From Bacillota bacterium (lineage in GTDB: Bacteria > Bacillota > Clostridia > Saccharofermentanales > DTU023), in NCBI GenBank assembly GCA_029570375.1, contig JAKPXB010000044.1:1-32204 (forward strand): a stretch of 32,204 nucleotides of DNA. Direction: 5' to 3'. A program made the translations under genes and the position numbers. Positions 12,444-21,138 of the stretch are shown here, piece by piece. Under the pieces are notes generated by a model. That model was not told the origin of the DNA and made no database searches. It saw nothing but the letters and a program-made list of their open reading frames with translations. How positions within the stretch are numbered: position 1 is the first letter of the stretch; every line of letters begins with the position of its first letter.

Positions 12444-12502
12444 AAAAAATAATATAATTTAAGTTGTCTTCTTCACCAACGGCTAACGGAAAGGATGACC
12501 AA

Positions 12503-14128
12503 ATGAACGGATACTTCGCACTCCCACCAGTAAAAAATGAGCCGCTTCAGGACTACTCGCCGGGTTCGCCCGCGCGGGATTCGCTGAAAGCGGAGCTCGA
12601 AAGACAGGCGGCCATCACGCTGGATATCCCCGTGATCATCGGAGGAAAAGATATCAGTACGGGTGATATCAAAACAGTTGTCATGCCGCACAACCACCGC
12701 CATGTGCTCGCCCGCGTGCACCAGGCCGGAGAAAAGGAACTGAAACGCGCGATCGACGCCGCGCTGGAAGCCAAAAAAAGCTGGGCGTCGATGCCGCATT
12801 CGCACCGCCAGGGCATATTTCTGAAAGCGGCGAAACTGCTCTCCGGTCCCTGGCGCGATATCATTAACGCGGCGACCATGCTCGGACAGAGCAAAACCGT
12901 TTATCAGGCTGAGATCGATTCGGCCTGCGAACTCTGTGACTTCCTGCGTTTCAATGTCGCTTACGCTGACGAGATTTACAGAATTCAGCCAAACAGTACG
13001 GACGGCGTGTGGAACCGCATGGAGTACCGTCCGCTGGACGGTTTCGTCCTCGCGGTGACGCCGTTCAACTTCACGTCCATCTCCGGCAACCTCCCGCTGG
13101 CGCCCGCGATTATGGGAAACGCAGTCCTTTGGAAGCCTGCCGGGACGGCGGCGCTCGCGAGTTATTATTTCTACCTGCTCCTGTGTGAAGCGGGTCTGCC
13201 GCCCGGCGTTATCAATTTCATCCCCTCCGCCGGAACTGATGTCGGTCGGTATGTCGTAAGCGACCCGAGGCTAGGCGGCGTCCACTTCACCGGTTCGACG
13301 GCCACGTTCAACGAGATCTGGCGCGAAGTCGGAAGCCATATTTCACGTTACAATCAGTACCCGCGGCTCGTCGGAGAAACAGGCGGGAAAGATTTTGTCT
13401 TCGCCCATCATTCGGCGGATGTCGGCGCGCTGATCGCGGCGCTCGTCCGCGGCTCGTTCGAATACCAGGGACAGAAATGTTCCGCCGCTTCCCGCGCGTA
13501 TATCCCCCGGAGTATCTGGCCGAAAGTGAAAACGCTGCTGCTCCGGGAAATTGAAGAACTTAAGGTCGGCGATCCCGCCGATTTCACCACATTCATGTCG
13601 GCTGTCATCGACCGCGCTTCGTTTGACCGCATTAAGGGGTACATTGATGAGGCGAACGCGTCGGAAGACGCGGAGGTCCTGTGCGGCGGATACAATGACA
13701 GTGAGGGATATTTCGTCTATCCGACTGTCATCGAAGCGAAGGACCCGCATTATCCCAGCATGTGCGAGGAGATCTTCGGACCCGTCCTGACCGTGTTCGT
13801 CTACGATGACGATCAATTCGACGAGGCGCTTGAACTCTGTGACACGTCATCGCCCTACGCGCTGACAGGCGCCGTGTTCGCGAAAGAGCGCGACGTGCTC
13901 GTCGAGATGGAGAACCGCCTCCGCCACGCTGCCGGCAACTTCTACCTGAATGACAAGCCGACGGGAGCGGTCGTCGGCCAGCAGCCGTTCGGCGGCTCGC
14001 GGGCGTCGGGGACCAACGACAAGGCAGGCTCTCTCCTCAATATGATCCGCTGGACGAGTCCGCGCGTCATCAAGGAGTCTTTTGTTTCGATCTACGACAT
14101 CACTTATCCGTACATGGTTGAGGACTGA
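12503..14128 (+). CDS. pruA: 1-pyrroline-5-carboxylate (L-glutamate gamma-semialdehyde) dehydrogenase, ALDH4 type
   Basis: It oxidises glutamate semialdehyde/P5C to glutamate with NAD+, the second step of proline breakdown. The 541-residue length and long N-terminal arm (NGYFALPPVKNEP) match the stand-alone ALDH4/P5CDH group, not PutA. Visible motifs are NHRHVLARVHQAGE, FVLAVTPFNFTSISGNL, VLWKPAGTAALASYY, GVHFTGSTATFNEIW, the catalytic Glu in LVGETGGKDFVFAH, the catalytic Cys in EYQGQKCSAASRAYIP, and EEIFGPVLTVFVYDD. The ATG at 12503 has AAGGA seven bases upstream; the frame is open to 12464 but has no better start. It is the first gene of a five-gene operon whose other members form a flavin/Fe-S dehydrogenase, which fixes its role as the downstream enzyme. 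Confidence 0.93.
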   Translation: MNGYFALPPVKNEPLQDYSPGSPARDSLKAELERQAAITLDIPVIIGGKDISTGDIKTVVMPHNHRHVLARVHQAGEKELKRAIDAALEAKKSWASMPHSHRQGIFLKAAKLLSGPWRDIINAATMLGQSKTVYQAEIDSACELCDFLRFNVAYADEIYRIQPNSTDGVWNRMEYRPLDGFVLAVTPFNFTSISGNLPLAPAIMGNAVLWKPAGTAALASYYFYLLLCEAGLPPGVINFIPSAGTDVGRYVVSDPRLGGVHFTGSTATFNEIWREVGSHISRYNQYPRLVGETGGKDFVFAHHSADVGALIAALVRGSFEYQGQKCSAASRAYIPRSIWPKVKTLLLREIEELKVGDPADFTTFMSAVIDRASFDRIKGYIDEANASEDAEVLCGGYNDSEGYFVYPTVIEAKDPHYPSMCEEIFGPVLTVFVYDDDQFDEALELCDTSSPYALTGAVFAKERDVLVEMENRLRHAAGNFYLNDKPTGAVVGQQPFGGSRASGTNDKAGSLLNMIRWTSPRVIKESFVSIYDITYPYMVED

Positions 14129-14163
14129 ACCTCACACAGTCGAAAGCAGAAGGGAGTTTTTCC

Positions 14164-14484
14164 ATGGAAAACAGACGAATCACGGATCATCCGATCCTTG
14201 ATTTTTCAGAAGGCGAAGTCATCCCATTCACCTTTGACGGAAAACCGATGGAGGGCAGGAGCGGCGACACGATCGCTTCCGCTCTTCACGCCAACGGCGT
14301 CAAAGTGCTGGGATATCATTTCAAGACGAAGCGGCCGCGCGGATTCTATTGCGCGATCGGCAACTGTTCGTCGTGCCTGATGGTCGTCAACGGCCAATCA
14401 AATGTACGCACGTGCACGGAGCCCTTACTGCCCGGCATGAAAGTCGAGACGCAGATCGACAGAGGAGTACCCGATGATGTATGA
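14164..14484 (+). CDS. Small [2Fe-2S] ferredoxin-like subunit of the amino-acid dehydrogenase (HcnA-like)
   Basis: This 106-residue protein has a plant-type 2Fe-2S domain of the Fer2_4 class. It opens with VIPFTFDGKPMEGRSGDTIA, and the cluster cysteines lie in FYCAIGNCSSCLMVVNG and RTCTEPL. Such small subunits occur in heteromeric D- or L-amino-acid and proline dehydrogenases, in hydrogen cyanide synthase (HcnA), and as the N-terminal part of sarcosine oxidase alpha. It carries electrons between the two flavoproteins. AGGGAG precedes the ATG, and its last codons overlap the next start by 11 bases, indicating tight coupling. Confidence 0.9.
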   Translation: MENRRITDHPILDFSEGEVIPFTFDGKPMEGRSGDTIASALHANGVKVLGYHFKTKRPRGFYCAIGNCSSCLMVVNGQSNVRTCTEPLLPGMKVETQIDRGVPDDV

Positions 14485-15589
14485 AACGGATCTTGTAGTC
14501 ATCGGCGGCGGTCCCGCCGGATTGATGGCGGCGAATACGGCAGCCGGAGCGGGCGCAAGTGTTCTGCTGCTCGAACGCGACAGACACCTGGGCGGACAGC
14601 TCATCAAACAGACTCACAAATTTTTCGGATCGGAGAAGCAGCACGCGTCCGAACGAGGCATTGATATTGCCGCCCTGCTCGGCGATGAGCTCAAATCGCT
14701 GGAAGACCGCGTGACGGTCTGGACGCACGCGACAGCGGTCGGCCTGTACGACGACGGCGTGATCACCGTTGATTACGACGGAACCTACCGGAAAGTCAGG
14801 CCGAAGCGCATTGTCGCGGCCACCGGCGCGTCCGAGAAATTCTTATCTTTCCCGAACAACGACCTCCCCGGCATCTACGGAGCCGGCGCCGTGCAGACCA
14901 TGATGAATGTCTACGGACTTCGCCCCGGAAAGCGCGTCCTCATGATCGGGGCCGGGAATATCGGCCTGATCGTCAGCTACCAGCTTCTGCAAGCCGGTGT
15001 TTCCGTCGCCGCGGTTGTGGAGGGACTCCCTCAGATCGGCGGCTATGCCGTACACGCGAGCAAAATCCGACGCGCCGGCGTGCCGATTCTGACATCGCAC
15101 ACCATCGTGCGCGCGGATGGCAAAGAATCTGTCGAGAGCGCGGTGATCGCGGAAATCGGCAGCGACTGGAAGGTCGTCCGCGGGAGCGAACAGACGATCC
15201 CCTGCGATGTCATCTGCATCTCCGTCGGCCTCACGCCCCTCACGGAGCTCTTGTGGCAGGCCGGCTGTGAGATGCGCTATATACCGGCTCTCGGAGGATA
15301 TGTTCCTGCGCGGAGTGACAGACTGGAGACGACCGTCCCCGGTATTTACGTCGCGGGCGATGCGGCGGGCATTGAGGAGGCGAGCGCCGCCATGGTCGAA
15401 GGGCACCTCGCCGGGCTCGAAGCCGCTCTGTCACTCGGCTGTGGCGGCGATGGCTGTGAAGAAGAACGCGCTGATTGCTTAAAGCAGCTGAGCAGCCTGC
15501 GCTCAGGACCGACAGCGGAGAAGATCCGCGCCGGCCTTTCCTGCGCTCATGGTTGTCAGACACCCAAAAGGAGGGATGAACATGCTTGA
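14474..15589 (+). CDS. FAD/NAD(P)-binding oxidoreductase subunit (HcnB/PDH-alpha-like)
   Basis: The 371-residue pyridine-nucleotide-disulfide-type flavoprotein has an N-terminal FAD-binding motif (LVVIGGGPAGLMAANTAAG), the ERDRHLGGQL segment, IVAATGASEKFL, a second dinucleotide fold (VLMIGAGNIGLIVSYQLL) and GIYVAGDAAGIEEASAAM near the end. It is related to the NADH-linked alpha subunit of multimeric proline dehydrogenases and to HcnB. In many relatives a BFD-type 2Fe-2S domain is fused at the C-terminus; here the protein ends soon after CAHGCQTP and that domain is found in the next gene. GAGGAG lies six bases upstream of ATG 14474; ATG 14477 is equally possible. Confidence 0.88.
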   Translation: MMYETDLVVIGGGPAGLMAANTAAGAGASVLLLERDRHLGGQLIKQTHKFFGSEKQHASERGIDIAALLGDELKSLEDRVTVWTHATAVGLYDDGVITVDYDGTYRKVRPKRIVAATGASEKFLSFPNNDLPGIYGAGAVQTMMNVYGLRPGKRVLMIGAGNIGLIVSYQLLQAGVSVAAVVEGLPQIGGYAVHASKIRRAGVPILTSHTIVRADGKESVESAVIAEIGSDWKVVRGSEQTIPCDVICISVGLTPLTELLWQAGCEMRYIPALGGYVPARSDRLETTVPGIYVAGDAAGIEEASAAMVEGHLAGLEAALSLGCGGDGCEEERADCLKQLSSLRSGPTAEKIRAGLSCAHGCQTPKRRDEHA

Positions 15590-16415
15590 AAAAACGGGAA
15601 TAGCGACGCGTGAGCAGATTGAGAAGCTCCTCCCCTCTCCCGGGCGGAGAGCGGAAGGCCCCTACGCGGTGATGGAATGTTTCCAGAAAATCCCATGCAA
15701 TCCCTGCAGCACATCCTGCGCGTTTCACGCGATTCTTCCGATGGATGATATAAACGACATCCCCTCCGTCACGCCGGATAAATGCACAGGCTGCGGCGCG
15801 TGTGCCGCTGTCTGCCCCGGGCTTGCCATCTTCATTATCGATGAGAGCAAGGGCGGCGGGACGGGTACCGTTACCCTCCCCTATGAGTTCAGGCCGCTGC
15901 CCGGCATAGGAGAAACAGTAAAGGCCGTAAACCGCGCGGGAGAAGTGGTCGGAGACGCCGTCGTGACCCGCGTTCTTCCGGGTAAAAAGACGAAGACGCC
16001 TCTCGTGACGATTGAAGTGCCATTATCTCTCGTTCATGAGGTTCGCTTTATCCGATGCGAGGCACATCAGGAGGAGGATCCCAGCGTGGCGGATACGCTG
16101 CGGGAGATACCGGCTCCGCCGCAAACAGCTGACATCGGGGAACAGGACGACGAAGTTGTCATCTGCCGCTGCGAAGGCGTCACGCTCAGAGAGATCCGCG
16201 ATCTGATCCGTGAAGGCTACACGACAGTCGACGAAATTAAGCGCATCAGCCGGGCCGGCATGGGGCCCTGCCAGGCACGCACATGCGGACCGCTGATCGC
16301 CGCGGAGATCGCGAGGATGACGGGGGAGCCTTTGGGATCTGTCGCGCCTTCGGCACACCGCGCGCCGGTCAAGCCCCTGCCCATCGAGTTTTTCTTAGGA
16401 GGCGATACAGAATGA
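15582..16415 (+). CDS. Fe-S electron-transfer subunit: 4Fe-4S domain plus BFD-like 2Fe-2S domain
   Basis: The ATG at 15582 sits seven bases after AAAGGAGG and overlaps the previous gene by eight bases. The N-terminal half has a cysteine cluster (CFQKIPCNPCSTSCAF) and a classic 4Fe-4S motif (CTGCGACAAVCPGLAIF). The middle (about residues 90-165) is a beta-rich segment (VKAVNRAGEVVGDAVVTRV). The C-terminal part has the BFD pattern: VICRCEGVTLREIRDLI, then GPCQARTCGPLIAAEIA. It would link the 2Fe-2S small subunit and the two flavoproteins. Its role is inferred from the domains and the operon position; such fused subunits accompany multisubunit proline/hydroxyproline dehydrogenases in Clostridia and archaea. 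Confidence 0.85.
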   Translation: MLEKTGIATREQIEKLLPSPGRRAEGPYAVMECFQKIPCNPCSTSCAFHAILPMDDINDIPSVTPDKCTGCGACAAVCPGLAIFIIDESKGGGTGTVTLPYEFRPLPGIGETVKAVNRAGEVVGDAVVTRVLPGKKTKTPLVTIEVPLSLVHEVRFIRCEAHQEEDPSVADTLREIPAPPQTADIGEQDDEVVICRCEGVTLREIRDLIREGYTTVDEIKRISRAGMGPCQARTCGPLIAAEIARMTGEPLGSVAPSAHRAPVKPLPIEFFLGGDTE

Positions 16416-17566
16416 ATTTACCGAAATCAGCATCTGTCGTCATTGTCGGGGGAGGCATCTCCGGCTGCGCGATCGCCTGGAATCTGGCGAATCGCGGCGT
16501 GAAAGATATTGTCGTCCTTGAGAAAGACACGCTCGCAAACGGGTCAACCGGACGCTGCGGCGCCGGCATCCGCATGCAGTGGGGGGCGGAGAAGAACTGC
16601 CGGCTCGCGCAGTTCTCCGTCAACTTTTTTGAGAACGCGAACGACATTCTCGCCTATGAGCGCGACATCGAGTTTGAGCAGAGCGGATACCTGATCATCG
16701 CGGCGAACGAGGCGGAAGCGCAGCAGTTCAGAAAAAACGTCGCGCTTCAGAACAGCCTCGGGATCCCCTCTGTATTTCTGAGTCCGGAAGAAGCGACGGC
16801 GATTGTCCCCTACATCAACGCGACACAGTTCGTCGCCGCGACTTTCTGCCAGAAAGACGGGCACCTGAACCCGTTCCACACGACGGACGCCTTTGCGATC
16901 GCCGCCGAGCGGCTGGGCGTCAGGATATTCAAACACACCGAAGTGACCGGCATTGAGGTAAAAAACAACCGCATTGAAAGCGTGGACACAACGGGCGGGC
17001 GCATCGCGACGCACATCGTCGTCAACGCCGCCGGAGGATGGTCTAAGGCGATTGGCAAGATGGCGGGTGTCGATGTCCCTGTCTATGTGCAGCGCCATCA
17101 GATTCTCGTCACAGAGCCTCTGGAGCCCATACTGGGGCCGATGGTCATGGGGTTCTCCTATAACATCTATATCCAGCAGGTTCCCCACGGATCGATCATC
17201 ATGGGGCGGAGTGACCACACGGAGCCGCGGGACTTCCGCACGACATCGGGCTGGAAGTTCATTGAAGAAATGACGAAGACATGCGGCACGCTCCTCCCCT
17301 ATCTCAGGACGGCGAAAATCCTGAGGCAGTGGGCGGGGCATTACTGCATGACAGAAGACGCGCAGCCGATCTACGGGCCTGTCCCCGAAGTCGAGGGCAT
17401 GTATCTCGCCTGCGGATTCAGCGGACACGGGTTTATGCTCGCCCCTGCCACCGCTGAGCTGATCAGCGAGATGATTCTCGGTGAGCCGCTGACGATCGAT
17501 GTATCGGACCTCGATATCGGCCGCTTCAAAAGGCGGGAACTGGTGCGGGAGCAATCTGTCGTTTAG
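16412..17566 (+). CDS. DadA-family FAD-dependent amino/imino-acid dehydrogenase catalytic subunit (PDH-beta/HcnC-like)
   Basis: The 384-residue DAO-fold flavoprotein starts at ATG 16412 (TAGGAGG nine bases upstream) and overlaps the previous stop by four bases (ATGA). Motifs are VVIVGGGISGCAIAWNLANR, VVLEKDTLANGSTGRCGAGI, VVNAAGGWSKAIGKMAG, VYVQRHQILVTEP and the C-terminal GMYLACGFSGHGFMLAPATA. It resembles the beta subunit of multimeric L-proline dehydrogenase and sarcosine oxidase beta. With a P5C dehydrogenase in the same operon the likely substrate is L-proline, or a hydroxyproline isomer. No folate-binding domain is present, which argues against sarcosine. Exact substrate assignment is inference. 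Confidence 0.88.
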   Translation: MNLPKSASVVIVGGGISGCAIAWNLANRGVKDIVVLEKDTLANGSTGRCGAGIRMQWGAEKNCRLAQFSVNFFENANDILAYERDIEFEQSGYLIIAANEAEAQQFRKNVALQNSLGIPSVFLSPEEATAIVPYINATQFVAATFCQKDGHLNPFHTTDAFAIAAERLGVRIFKHTEVTGIEVKNNRIESVDTTGGRIATHIVVNAAGGWSKAIGKMAGVDVPVYVQRHQILVTEPLEPILGPMVMGFSYNIYIQQVPHGSIIMGRSDHTEPRDFRTTSGWKFIEEMTKTCGTLLPYLRTAKILRQWAGHYCMTEDAQPIYGPVPEVEGMYLACGFSGHGFMLAPATAELISEMILGEPLTIDVSDLDIGRFKRRELVREQSVV

Positions 17567-17692: not shown

Positions 17693-18304
17693 CTACACGC
17701 CTGTTGAGCCGAAGCCGCCCCCTCTGTCGCTGCCGATCGCCGCGACATCGTCGACCGCCGTCATTACGGGAATCGTCACTTCAGAGAATACGAGCTGCGC
17801 GATGCGGTCGCCTCTGTGAACATAGATGCTGCCGAGCGGGTGCCCTTCTTCGTCGACGAAAATCGTCGGGTCGTGAAACGTGAGCGGCAGCGTATAGCCG
17901 GTTAGTTTCTTGAAATAGGCGGCTGCCGGCATCGCCTGATAGTGTCTGTGGAAGCTTTCTAGGATTTCGGGATGTTTCAGCAGATACGGCACGGGGTCGA
18001 AGAGCGGCGCCGTGTTCTCGCAGATGATCGAAACGACGCCGCGGTAGTCCGCGTCGATTGTCCCTGGAGTGTTCGCGATCCGGAGGCTCGTCCTGAGCGA
18101 TAACCCGCTCCGCGGCCTCACCTGCGCTTCCAGACCGGGCGGCATGGCGATTCTGATACCCGTTGGGACGATAACCGTCTGTCCCGGCTCAATTACCGTG
18201 TCGCCAAACGCGTAGAGATCAAATCCCGCCGCCTGCGAAGAGGCGCGCTCCGGCATTTTTGCGCCGTCTTCCAGCGCGATAAAAACTGTGTTCTCCTGTC
18301 CCAT
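17693..18304 (-). CDS. dut: dUTP diphosphatase with an insertion between motifs 3 and 4
   Basis: It hydrolyses dUTP to dUMP, keeping uracil out of DNA. All five trimeric-dUTPase motifs are visible: AAGFDLYA (1), RPRSGLSLR (2), GTIDADYRG (3), RGDRIAQLVF (4) and the flexible C-terminal DRGGGFGSTG (5). At 203 residues it is about 55 longer than usual. The excess lies between motifs 3 and 4, from PLFDPVPYLL to the segment before GSIYVHRGDR. It follows zapA by six bases in the 3D protein - rsmA - zapA - dut operon. Confidence 0.93.
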   Translation of the reverse strand: MGQENTVFIALEDGAKMPERASSQAAGFDLYAFGDTVIEPGQTVIVPTGIRIAMPPGLEAQVRPRSGLSLRTSLRIANTPGTIDADYRGVVSIICENTAPLFDPVPYLLKHPEILESFHRHYQAMPAAAYFKKLTGYTLPLTFHDPTIFVDEEGHPLGSIYVHRGDRIAQLVFSEVTIPVMTAVDDVAAIGSDRGGGFGSTGV

Positions 18305-18310
18305 CTGCTG

Positions 18311-18886
18311 TCACACCGTTTCTGTCTCTCCCCCGGATTCAGTTTGAGCCGAGGAAGGTGAATCGCCGTCCTGCTCCTGTTCCTGTTCTCCCCCATCCTG
18401 TCCGCCGAGCGCGTCTTCAATTGTCATCTGCAGGTCGCCGAGAAGCCGCTTGTAACCCCTCCTGGCGCGGCGGGGGGTGGGACGGTTCTCCTCTTCGTCC
18501 GGAGACGGCGCCCTTTCAGAGAGTTTCGTCTCATAGATCTCGCAGAGGTTGCGGTAATACAGCAGGTCTTTTTTCATCTGCCAGAACAGCTCGCGCTGCC
18601 GGATCAATTCCGATTTGATCTCTTCCGCTGTCTGTATGGCGAATTCTTTGTCAGCCAGAGCTGACTGCAGCTTCTGATGCGACTCTTCCATCAGTCCGAC
18701 CGCGTTGACAAGGGCCAATACCGCCTGCGCGACCTGGTTGAGCTGGGGAGACTTTTTCGCGACCTGATTCATCATGGCGTCGGCTGTCGCGGCGATGTCG
18801 CGCATTTTCTGCGGATCATCATGCGTCGTCAGCTGGTAGGTAATCTTCCCGATACGGGCTTGTATGCTTTCAACAGGAGCGCTCAC
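18311..18886 (-). CDS. zapA: ZapA-like cell division protein with long C-terminal tail
   Basis: The N-terminal 100 residues fit ZapA: ARIGKITYQLTTHDDPQKM, IAATADAMMNQVAKKSP and AQAVLALVNAVGLMEE, followed by a long helix that forms the coiled coil. ZapA binds FtsZ and bundles protofilaments at midcell. The GTG at 18886 is preferred because AGGAGG lies eight bases upstream; a TTG two codons earlier is too close to that site. The protein is about twice the usual length. The tail has an arginine-rich patch (PTPRRARRGYKR), then an acidic, Gln/Glu/Ser-rich end. Confidence 0.8.
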   Translation of the reverse strand: MSAPVESIQARIGKITYQLTTHDDPQKMRDIAATADAMMNQVAKKSPQLNQVAQAVLALVNAVGLMEESHQKLQSALADKEFAIQTAEEIKSELIRQRELFWQMKKDLLYYRNLCEIYETKLSERAPSPDEEENRPTPRRARRGYKRLLGDLQMTIEDALGGQDGGEQEQEQDGDSPSSAQTESGGETETV

Positions 18887-18913
18887 AGTCAAAACCTCCT
18901 CCCCGTCGTCTAT

Positions 18914-19789
18914 TTATGATACTGGATTCCCGGGCTTGTGAACAGAGCCGCCCGTCCGGAGTGTGAGATAGAGGTCTTTAAACTGAATAGGTGTCAGCTG
19001 TTCCGCCCGGATACCGGGATCACATGCGTGCTGTTCAAGAAAGGAAAGGAGCTCTGCACCCATGTTCTCCGGGGTGAACGCCAGCTTTAGGGCGTTCATG
19101 AGCGTTTTTCTTCTGAACTGAAAAAGACTTGTGATGAATCGATGAAAACCCGGATCGGCCGCCACCTGCTTATCGCTTTCATCCGACGAGGGGATGAGCG
19201 AGACAAGCGATGATGTCACATGCGGCGAAGGTGTGAACGACCGGCGCGGGACAGTATTCTCCACACGCCATATCCCGAACAGATTCGTCACGATCGAAAG
19301 TGTGCCGTATTTCTTCGTCCCCGGTCTGTTCATGAGCCGTTCCACTACATCCTCCTGAATCATGAAGAGAGCGCGCGCCATGGACGGCATTTGGCTGACC
19401 GCCAGCAGCACGAGTTCCGTCGTCAGATAATAAGGAAGATTGCCAAAAACGATCAGGCGCCCGGCCGGCGTTGCCGCGAGCGCATCAAAATCCACATGGC
19501 GCGCATCTTCGTAAACAACACGCGGTTTCGGATCAAGGGATGCGAACAAAGTTTCATGCAGCGGCCGGAATCGCGGATCGATCTCAACCGCGTAGACATC
19601 GCCGGATTCTTCGGCGATCCGCTTCGTTATAAAACCCGGCCCGGCGCCGAGTTCGACGACGCGGTCTCCGCGCGTCAGACCGAGAAGAGCGACAATACGC
19701 TCAATGACTCTGTCATCGGTAAGAAAAACCTGCCCGAGCGAATGCTTCGGCCTCAGGTCAAATTCGCGAAGCAGAGCCTGGTAAGACAT
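18914..19789 (-). CDS. rsmA: 16S rRNA (adenine1518/1519-N6) dimethyltransferase
   Basis: RsmA (KsgA) dimethylates two adenines in helix 45 of 16S rRNA late in 30S assembly. Motifs are RPKHSLGQVFL (usually GQNFL), RVVELGAGPGFITKRIA (SAM binding), VYAVEIDPRF, VYEDARHVDFD, the catalytic VFGNLPYYLTT, and FQFRRKTLMNAL near the C-terminus. The 291-residue reading from ATG 19789 gives the standard 14-residue lead; the frame is open to 19876 inside the upstream gene. It follows a 3D-domain protein, in keeping with the common Firmicutes order of a 3D-domain yabE-like gene, then rnmV, then rsmA, though rnmV is absent here. Confidence 0.95.
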   Translation of the reverse strand: MSYQALLREFDLRPKHSLGQVFLTDDRVIERIVALLGLTRGDRVVELGAGPGFITKRIAEESGDVYAVEIDPRFRPLHETLFASLDPKPRVVYEDARHVDFDALAATPAGRLIVFGNLPYYLTTELVLLAVSQMPSMARALFMIQEDVVERLMNRPGTKKYGTLSIVTNLFGIWRVENTVPRRSFTPSPHVTSSLVSLIPSSDESDKQVAADPGFHRFITSLFQFRRKTLMNALKLAFTPENMGAELLSFLEQHACDPGIRAEQLTPIQFKDLYLTLRTGGSVHKPGNPVS

Positions 19790-19815
19790 GATACGATTCA
19801 GCTGCTGAAAGGGTA

Positions 19816-21138
19816 TTACGGGGACGTAATGATATAGATACCGTTCGTCCAGTTTCTGCGCGTGAGCTTCGAACACTCATCCGCGTCGTAGCAGACGTCA
19901 AAATGAGAACCGCTCCTGTCGCCGACAACCGCCATACCGTACCCGATTACGAAGACCACCGTCCCCCGCGGGTACGTGCCGATCTCCGATTGCGGAACGG
20001 CGACAATTCCGCGCTGCGCGAGCAGGCCGCACGCGGTGCCGTGGCATGTCGGCGTGGTATGTCCGGCGAAGCACACGCCGCCGTTTACAGCAATGGAATG
20101 CCTGCAGACCGCAACGCCGTCATAGTGTGTGGCGCGTCTGCCAGGCATCAGCTGGACATAAGAAATCGTGACCCCGTCGACCGTTATCGTCCCGTTTCCG
20201 TTATCCGTAAACGTTTCATAGTGCCTGTTGATGGACGAACTGCCTTCTTTGTTGATCAGGCCGTATTGCTTCAGCAGCGCGTGGTTCGTGCGCGCAACGG
20301 CATTAGAGCCGCCTGAAGGCGGATTGACAAACGATACCGACCCTGATGGAGGTTTAACGGTCGTCGCCTGCGTGGCTGTAGTAACCGGCGGCGCGGCCGT
20401 GGAGGAGGGCGTCGGCTTCGTCGTCGCACTTGCCGATGGTCCGGAGGTCGGCGCTGTCGTTTTCGGCCTGACCGTCGTTGTGGTTGTAGTGGTTGTGGTC
20501 GGAGGTTCTGTCACAGGCCTGTACTTCGTGATGAAATCGCGGGAGACATAGCCGATCTCGTAGCCCGCCAGCCTCACTTTGGCCCATTCGCTGTTCAGGC
20601 CGATGACGCGCAGCGGCGTCCCGTAATCGAGTTTTCTCAGGACAGGAGCTTTTGTAGAGGGCTTCTCACGGAGGTTCAGACCGTTCTCGGAGTTCGCGTA
20701 ATAGCGGATGTCCACAGATTCAAAAGCCTCGGGATCGCGCGTTGTCGTCGTTTTGGGAGTGGTCGCAACTGTTGTCGTCGTTCCGGATGTGGTTTTAACC
20801 GCCGCCGCGGTTGTCGTTGGTTCCGCGGTGTCCTTTGCCGCGGACTCCTGTGTCGTCGGAGGTTCCGTGTCGGATGACGCGTAATCATTGTCCGGCGACA
20901 GTATTTCATCAACATGGAGATAGTGGCGGTCGATCAGCGCTTCTTCTCCGTCGGTAGTCTCTGACGGTCCGGTGATACCGGCGTCCGGTTTCGTCAGGTC
21001 GCCAAACGGAACGAAGACCGCCTGATCCCTGACGTCAGAGGTTGTGATGATACGCACGGAAAGCACAACAAGAACGGCTGCCACTAATACGAGGGTAGTC
21101 GTCATCAACATAGCGTCCAGATTACGTCTGCGCCGCAT
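19816..21138 (-). CDS. Membrane-anchored SH3b and 3D-domain cell-wall protein with Thr-rich linkers
   Basis: The 440-residue product starts at ATG 21138 (AAAGGAACC just upstream). A membrane helix lies near residues 10-30 (AMLMTTTLVLVAAVLVVLSV). A Thr-rich linker follows, then a bacterial SH3 domain (NGLNLREKPSTKAPVLRKLD, GYVSRDFITKY), and a second low-complexity Thr/Pro/Ser linker with ten consecutive threonines. The C-terminal 3D-like domain has GIVAVPQSEIGTYPRGTVVF, VIGYGMAVVGDRSGSHFDVC and YD, where three aspartates form the catalytic trio of lytic transglycosylase-like 3D domains. About 100 residues before it (NHALLKQYGLIN onward) are unassigned. It probably acts on peptidoglycan outside the cell. 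It heads the operon with rsmA, zapA and dut. Confidence 0.8.
   Translation of the reverse strand: MRRRRNLDAMLMTTTLVLVAAVLVVLSVRIITTSDVRDQAVFVPFGDLTKPDAGITGPSETTDGEEALIDRHYLHVDEILSPDNDYASSDTEPPTTQESAAKDTAEPTTTAAAVKTTSGTTTTVATTPKTTTTRDPEAFESVDIRYYANSENGLNLREKPSTKAPVLRKLDYGTPLRVIGLNSEWAKVRLAGYEIGYVSRDFITKYRPVTEPPTTTTTTTTTVRPKTTAPTSGPSASATTKPTPSSTAAPPVTTATQATTVKPPSGSVSFVNPPSGGSNAVARTNHALLKQYGLINKEGSSSINRHYETFTDNGNGTITVDGVTISYVQLMPGRRATHYDGVAVCRHSIAVNGGVCFAGHTTPTCHGTACGLLAQRGIVAVPQSEIGTYPRGTVVFVIGYGMAVVGDRSGSHFDVCYDADECSKLTRRNWTNGIYIITSP
20471..20502 (-). repeat. Triplet repeat encoding a poly-threonine run
   Basis: Repeated GTN triplets on the plus strand (ACN Thr codons on the minus strand) encode ten threonines in a row within the 3D-domain protein. 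A second Thr-rich stretch lies near 20745-20835. Such runs are prone to length change and resemble glycosylated cell-wall linkers. Confidence 0.6.

Follow-up and report, generated by a model that had tools for sequence, protein, structure and literature searches.

A conserved, probably folded insert between motifs III and IV of a chromosomal trimeric-type dUTPase in a clostridial family

The question raised by the dut gene of one Bacillota bacterium is why its product, a dUTPase and thus an enzyme that prevents uracil from entering DNA, carries a long additional segment between two of its catalytic motifs. The gene lies in a stretch of 32,204 nucleotides (GCA_029570375.1, contig JAKPXB010000044.1, positions 1 to 32,204 of the forward strand), referred to here as the window. 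An earlier note made from the letters alone had described five intact catalytic motifs with a Phe/Tyr/His-rich insert of about 55 residues between motifs 3 and 4, and had suggested that the insert could add a regulatory or protein-binding surface to the trimer. The five motifs were found, in order, at the following positions.

17693..18304, minus strand: dut, dUTP diphosphatase of 203 aa (open reading frame, Pfam and NCBIfam)
18209..18229, minus strand: motif I, AGFDLYA, residues 26-32 (sequence, alignments)
18104..18115, minus strand: motif II, PRSG within RPRSG, residues 64-67 (sequence; invariant in the alignment)
18038..18073, minus strand: motif III, NTPGTIDADYRG, residues 78-89 (sequence; invariant residues)
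17795..17812, minus strand: motif IV, GDRIAQ, residues 165-170 (sequence, alignment)
17699..17725, minus strand: motif V, RGGGFGSTG, residues 194-202 (sequence, alignment)

The protein matched the NCBIfam dut model with 127.3 bits (3.6e-37; cut-off 102.55) and the Pfam dUTPase model with 87.3 bits (9.6e-25), and it is the single dUTPase match in the window's genome. It has the conserved motifs of the trimeric dUTPases in their order as well as the all-beta core fold, the latter in an AF2 model and its PDB matches. Judged from its sequence, the gene encodes a trimeric-type dUTPase, a normal-looking bacterial housekeeping enzyme that is predicted to form a homotrimer and to hydrolyse dUTP. Identity with DCD-DUT (dCTP deaminase/dUTPase) was rejected. 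These enzymes are described as lacking the C-terminal P-loop motif V (PMC5593958), which is present in the window protein, and the DCD Pfam match was secondary (35.8 against 87.3 bits).

From Tyr87 of motif III to Arg167 of motif IV the window dUTPase counts 80 residues, against 24 from Y86 to R110 in the Mycobacterium tuberculosis dUTPase (PMC9927489). Hence 56 residues are extra, in agreement with the earlier estimate. Two parts can be told apart in this region.

17867..18013, minus strand: extra segment, residues 98-146, with predicted helices 104-110, 112-121 and 127-135 and a strand 123-126 (AF2; complete in 46 sequences)
17819..17866, minus strand: hairpin ahead of motif IV, residues 147-162, with the pattern [LVI]D..G.P.G[TS] (alignments, AF2)

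The D..G...G[TS] part of the hairpin also occurs in many shorter clostridial linkers. Phe, Tyr and His make up 23% of the insert residues in the window protein and 6% of its core, so the description as Phe/Tyr/His-rich holds for this protein; it does not extend to the family, since the inserts of 19 other long forms counted have 7-21% of these residues and 0-5 His, and the His residues picked out before (the string quoted then corresponds to residues 116-134) are unconserved among long forms.

The search for dUTPases sharing the insert, which the earlier note had recommended, returned 46 different full-length sequences including that of the window, and the insert is therefore not a chance feature. 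A dUTPase match was present in 53 of the 59 relatives searched and in 165 of 188 genomes of the order. All 33 matched genomes of the window's own family (f1) have the long form, every sequence having been read; one of them (L048, genome G016) is truncated by a contig end with its long linker still visible. At least five f1 genomes gave no dUTPase match, of which four are at most 84% complete and one (G014) is 93% complete. In the sister family f3 the long form was found in 11 of 17 matched genomes (all 11 read, that of G046 ending at a contig end); the other six gave split matches, and the four of these that were read are short. The ten sequences read from families f2 (six) and f4 (four) are all short, and the remaining matches of these two families, among the matches listed, end before the end of the insert.

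In a class sample of 392 genomes (358 matched), seven had a single full-length match among the matches listed by E-value. Besides the window these were two f3 genomes, G038 and G041, and four from other families, G346, G326, G415 and G519. When 398 genomes sampled from the phylum were searched, the insert profile found the window and none of the other 397; with the whole-protein profile eight genomes reached E 1e-40, the match being full-length in the window only. As a control, the insert profile recovered nine of nine chosen long-form genomes, at E-values no higher than 2e-12 and with at least positions 2-83 of its 85 covered, and two of four short-form genomes over the last 27-28 positions only. 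These last positions cover the hairpin and motif IV, which indicates that the hairpin is shared between the forms and the helical part is not. Among the loci collected, L051 and L015 are the same gene.

Some loci showed peculiarities of their own. Genome G046 has two dUTPase matches, on contigs C8 and C213; one is the long form, located where a contig starts, and the other lies in a 148-residue frame. The short-form dut genes of L064 and L065 (G173 and G174) are contained in longer open frames (407 and 430 residues), whose N-terminal part, rich in Arg and Pro, looks like out-of-frame GC-rich sequence and not a fusion. The insert was also considered as a standalone module, and this was rejected, as the sole candidate, situated near dut in genome G005 (L049 8580-8813), is a frame of 77 aa that resembles a decayed partial copy of the dut insert region. 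It lies among three similar tandem genes, which presumably encode surface-like proteins.

The length of the insert is nearly constant. The Tyr-to-Arg distance is 73-103 in the 46 full-length long forms (80-84 in 32 of them and 80-81 in 23), 39-46 in the 20 short forms except one at 59, and 23-64 in 62 phage dUTPases obtained from 80 fetched viral loci. A second count of the phage loci, in which 58 of the 80 were parsed, 12 rows remained unparsed and 10 loci had no row, gave 22-63, as most of its rows were counted from the residue after the Tyr. The site between motifs III and IV tolerates insertions widely, yet the long form is held within a narrow length range.

The sequence of the insert is less conserved than that of the core, with a mean pairwise identity of 33% against 57% among 31 f1 sequences and a genus-weighted entropy of 2.31 against 1.37 bits. 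The insert evolves faster than the core, as would also be expected of a surface under light constraint or tuned to a partner. Nevertheless, 21 of the 63 insert columns are conserved (entropy below 2 bits), and their mean hydrophobic fraction is 0.59 against 0.34 in the other 42. In addition to the hydrophobic ones, the conserved positions include Thr98, Pro112, a basic residue or Gln at 123, Asp151, Gly154, Pro156, Gly158 and Ser/Thr159. The mainly hydrophobic nature of the conserved positions points to the core of a fold more than to a patch conserved for docking. The dN/dS values for 16 long-form pairs were 0.03-0.36 for the insert and 0.04-0.12 for the core (14 pairs with a value in each case), some of them unreliable as dS exceeded 1; one short-form pair was also run. 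In the 13 pairs with both values the insert was higher in eight and lower in five. The insert is thus under purifying but relaxed selection.

Structural prediction is consistent with a folded element. The AF2 alignment consisted of the window sequence, one insert-bearing relative and 54 phage dUTPases, and thus held two insert-bearing sequences only; the whole model has a mean pLDDT of 88.4 and a pTM of 0.79. Within the insert it places helices at 104-110, 112-121 and 127-135 and strands at 123-126 and 147-150, and the mean pLDDT of blocks of ten residues is 79-93 over residues 101-160 (79-90 over 101-150). When the insert was modelled alone, from two sequences, nearly the same elements appeared with a mean pLDDT of 69.3. 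On these models, the insert is probably folded as helix-helix-strand-helix plus hairpin, and does not resemble a floppy linker. An insert that is common, disordered and unconserved across the whole order, named beforehand as the outcome that would speak against the idea of a functional addition, is contrary to what was found, namely a conserved and probably folded one. Comparison of the whole model with 1six, 2py4 and 8hrv by VIA gave Z of 20.3-20.9 and rmsd of 1.3-2.1, values that bear on the core and say nothing on the insert. The low-confidence model of the insert alone gave no significant match in the PDB (best E 0.79), and VIA over 60 chains returned none with a Z of 2 or more; at this model confidence the result speaks for neither a new nor a known fold.

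The nearest analogues are the dUTPases of staphylococcal phages 80alpha and phi11 (3zez, 5cco, 4gv8), which likewise carry an extra segment, motif VI, between motifs III and IV with the core intact. Foldseek aligned 182-204 columns of the model with these structures at rmsd 7.4-8.5, so that the extra segments themselves need not superpose; the match of profile A2 in the 80alpha structures runs as far as position 124, within the insert. Motif VI of the 80alpha enzyme starts around Asp95, a residue that faces the threefold channel, and has its tip at the convergence of motifs IV, V and VI (PMC5593958). Since Asn97, invariant in the 36 long forms aligned, opens the insert of the window protein, the insert should begin at about the same place as motif VI. 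By analogy with the course of motif VI from the channel to that convergence, it would sit on the face of the trimer, between the channel and the rim of the active site.

The two elements differ in other respects. Phage motif VI has about 30-40 residues and is diverse (PMC6770826), against 56 extra residues in the window; it is phage-borne and involved in binding of the repressor Stl, whereas the insert is encoded on the chromosome and is a conserved feature of a bacterial family. The window gene belongs to a chromosomal run of ksgA, zapA and dut and is not phage-carried, and hence its product is not a member of the staphylococcal phage motif VI group. M. tuberculosis and other canonical enzymes (1six, 2py4, 8hrv) are alike in core fold and motifs and have no insert. 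The clostridial short forms, with their stretch of 39-46 residues (one of 59), have a similar hairpin before motif IV, with D..G...G[TS] in many, but are without the helical segment of the long forms; in several loci their dut lies near zapA and a U32 peptidase gene, as in some long forms, and in the wider tree they fall together with the long forms, apart from the four canonical enzymes of solved structure (95/89).

Phylogeny suggests a single origin of the insert. In a tree of the insert-free core, the 46 long and 20 short forms stood on opposite sides of one branch (93/98, recovered in 91% of bootstrap trees). In a wider tree with 62 phage and four solved enzymes added, for which the program warned of few columns, the long forms, the short forms and 11 phage rows came together (95/89), with weaker support for the long clade itself (84/49). 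Two short-form rows of one f3 genus (g27) and seven phage rows adjoined the long clade (84/80), and thus the short forms are not one clade in this tree. The two forms also differ in their core. In each of the 46 long forms Asp precedes the motif III Tyr, and Ala or Ser stands two positions ahead of the motif I Gly; the 20 short forms invariably have Gly and Asp at these respective positions. In phi11, H21 and D24 at the beginning of motif I are contact residues for Stl (PMC6695447); if these correspond to residues 22 and 25 of the window protein, the long forms would be without both contact residues. The insert probably grew once from the hairpin between motifs III and IV.

One genus holds both forms, the long in G346 (L052) and the short in G284 (L056), apparently at the same locus behind zapA and the U32 gene. 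The two genomes are 86.7% identical in zapA, 64.7% in U32 and 79.0% in DNA polymerase IV, but just 53.3% in the dut core; with the dut cores of G326 and G415, which belong to other families, that of G346 shares 74% identity. This pattern fits the replacement of dut in place by transfer, and differential loss of two old dut forms is the alternative to it.

The genes upstream of dut in the window are as follows.

18311..18892, minus strand: ZapA-like cell division gene, directly upstream of dut (Pfam PF05164, synteny)
18914..19876, minus strand: ksgA/rsmA (NCBIfam TIGR00755)

The run ksgA-zapA-dut is present across most of family f1, and a ZapA-like gene occurs in the fetched dut flanks of 29 of 32 f1 loci (all except L008, L037 and L063). 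In G004, which is 97% complete, zapA was not found at E 0.01, ksgA directly adjoins dut, and the long insert is kept. The order zapA, U32 peptidase, dut is found with the long form in L052, L053 and L055 and with the short form in L056, where one additional gene separates zapA from U32, and a similarity search placed zapA and U32 in the short-form loci L057, L069 and L070 as well. Adjacency to zapA as a mark of the long form was rejected on this ground, a zapA query from a short-form locus having found zapA and U32 beside short-form dut. As zapA stands near both forms and G004 keeps the insert in its absence, the linkage is older than the insert and does not track it.

The ZapA-like protein of the window has a long C-terminal extension with the motif Q-x-x-[ILF]-x-[DE] (18410-18430, minus strand), which we take to resemble a sliding-clamp or PIP-type binding motif. 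A looser pattern fits 38 of the 42 distinct ZapA-like proteins examined, at a different site in a few rows. The tail motif is seen with long and short dUTPase forms alike and is absent from ZapA of L052, L053, L055 and L056; co-variation of the tail with the insert was looked for across the loci and not found. On the other side of dut, convergent with it, the plus strand at 12464-17566 carries an aldehyde-dehydrogenase-like gene and redox subunits (FAD, Fe-S), of which the last two genes were searched; the run is presumably a multi-subunit proline or hydroxyproline oxidation cluster.

With the insert profile no relative was found in 600 stretches of viral contigs, among the matches listed, and the one viral contig that matched a DNA pattern for the conserved hairpin was rejected, its frame not being a dUTPase. 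The whole protein has matches in 1897 records of annotated phages, each below 60% identity and 237 of them over at least 80% of its length. Plasmids gave no match to the insert, and PHROGs returned dUTPase for the whole protein and nothing for the insert. Titles and abstract openings in the literature held no mention of such a clostridial insert, a weak result as subscription journals are mostly outside the coverage. The suggestion that the insert serves phage-related signalling thus found no backing, ksgA and zapA being the upstream genes and the viral stretches examined, plasmids and PHROGs having yielded no relative of the insert. Likewise, the suggested link to the division proteins encoded next door did not hold up, given zapA near both forms, the insert of G004 and a tail motif independent of the form. 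The more general idea of an added regulatory or binding surface fares better. It is a fair one in so far as the insert is real, conserved, probably folded and at the site of phage motif VI; it is the proposed links to division proteins and phage signalling that gained no support.

What the insert does may be best described as a structural cap near the active-site rim, a reading held tentatively and with a little less than even confidence. In a housekeeping trimeric dUTPase the hairpin between motifs III and IV would have grown into a folded mini-domain of about 50 residues, which would lie on the face of the trimer, between its threefold channel and the rim of the active site. Such a cap could stiffen the trimer and shape the closure of the C-terminal arm that bears motif V, and would be dispensable for catalysis itself. 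The model follows motif VI of the phage enzyme in placement and in dispensability for catalysis (PMC4914113, PMC5593958). It draws further on the intact motifs, the predicted fold, the near-constant length, the mainly hydrophobic conserved columns, the purifying selection and the grouping of the long forms by core. Against it count the short forms at the same locus, which manage without the insert, the faster evolution of the insert than of the core, the two insert-bearing sequences only in the AF2 alignment, the weaker support for the long clade in the wider tree and the rmsd of 7.4-8.5 in the Foldseek matches to the motif VI enzymes.

The main rival is that the insert is a docking or regulatory surface for a repressor-like, replication or repair partner, which would make the enzyme a dUTP-dependent switch. 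We regard this as possible but on the unlikely side. The insert occupies the position of motif VI, the removal of which leaves catalysis of the 80alpha enzyme intact and abolishes detectable Stl binding (PMC4914113), although the phi11 insert is described as not essential for Stl binding (PMC6770826). Fast evolution relative to the core would suit a partner surface, and so would long forms that group by core across families, one of them in the place of a short form; the conserved insert columns, mostly hydrophobic or Gly/Pro, would not, nor would zapA, the one neighbour examined, which does not track the insert, nor the lack of an insert relative in the viral-contig stretches examined, plasmids or PHROGs.

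A neutral elaboration, in which an insertion-tolerant hairpin acquired the insert once and the insert folded well enough with no function of its own, appears rather improbable. It would account for the spread of the same stretch over 23-64 residues in 62 phage dUTPases and 39-59 in 20 bacterial short forms, and for the short form at the same locus in a sister species. It is opposed by the near-constant length, the purifying selection and the presence of the insert in 33 of 33 f1 dUTPases found. More speculative still, and held at low confidence, is the notion that long and short dUTPases are exchangeable alleles at one conserved clostridial locus, the folded module of the long form making a housekeeping dUTPase a sensor or effector that has a protein partner of its own. 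Such a module would be the counterpart in bacteria of phage motif VI, with selection coming for example from satellites or phages to which dUTPase serves as a signal. That the insert is a contact point for the neighbouring division protein ZapA is highly improbable: a ZapA-like gene stands at 29 of 32 f1 dut loci, but zapA with the U32 gene also adjoins short-form dut, G004 keeps the insert with no zapA match, and the tail motif occurs with both forms and is absent with both in other families.

The window enzyme possibly works as the dUTPases of staphylococcal phages do, with an accessory element on its surface. Phage and some bacterial dUTPases carry small extra elements that are dispensable for catalysis and matter in vivo (PMC4914113, PMC10815766, PMC12524310). 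The insert of the window protein is a conserved, probably folded extra element on bacterial chromosomes, and the short form that sister species have at the same locus completes a clean pair for comparing the two forms.
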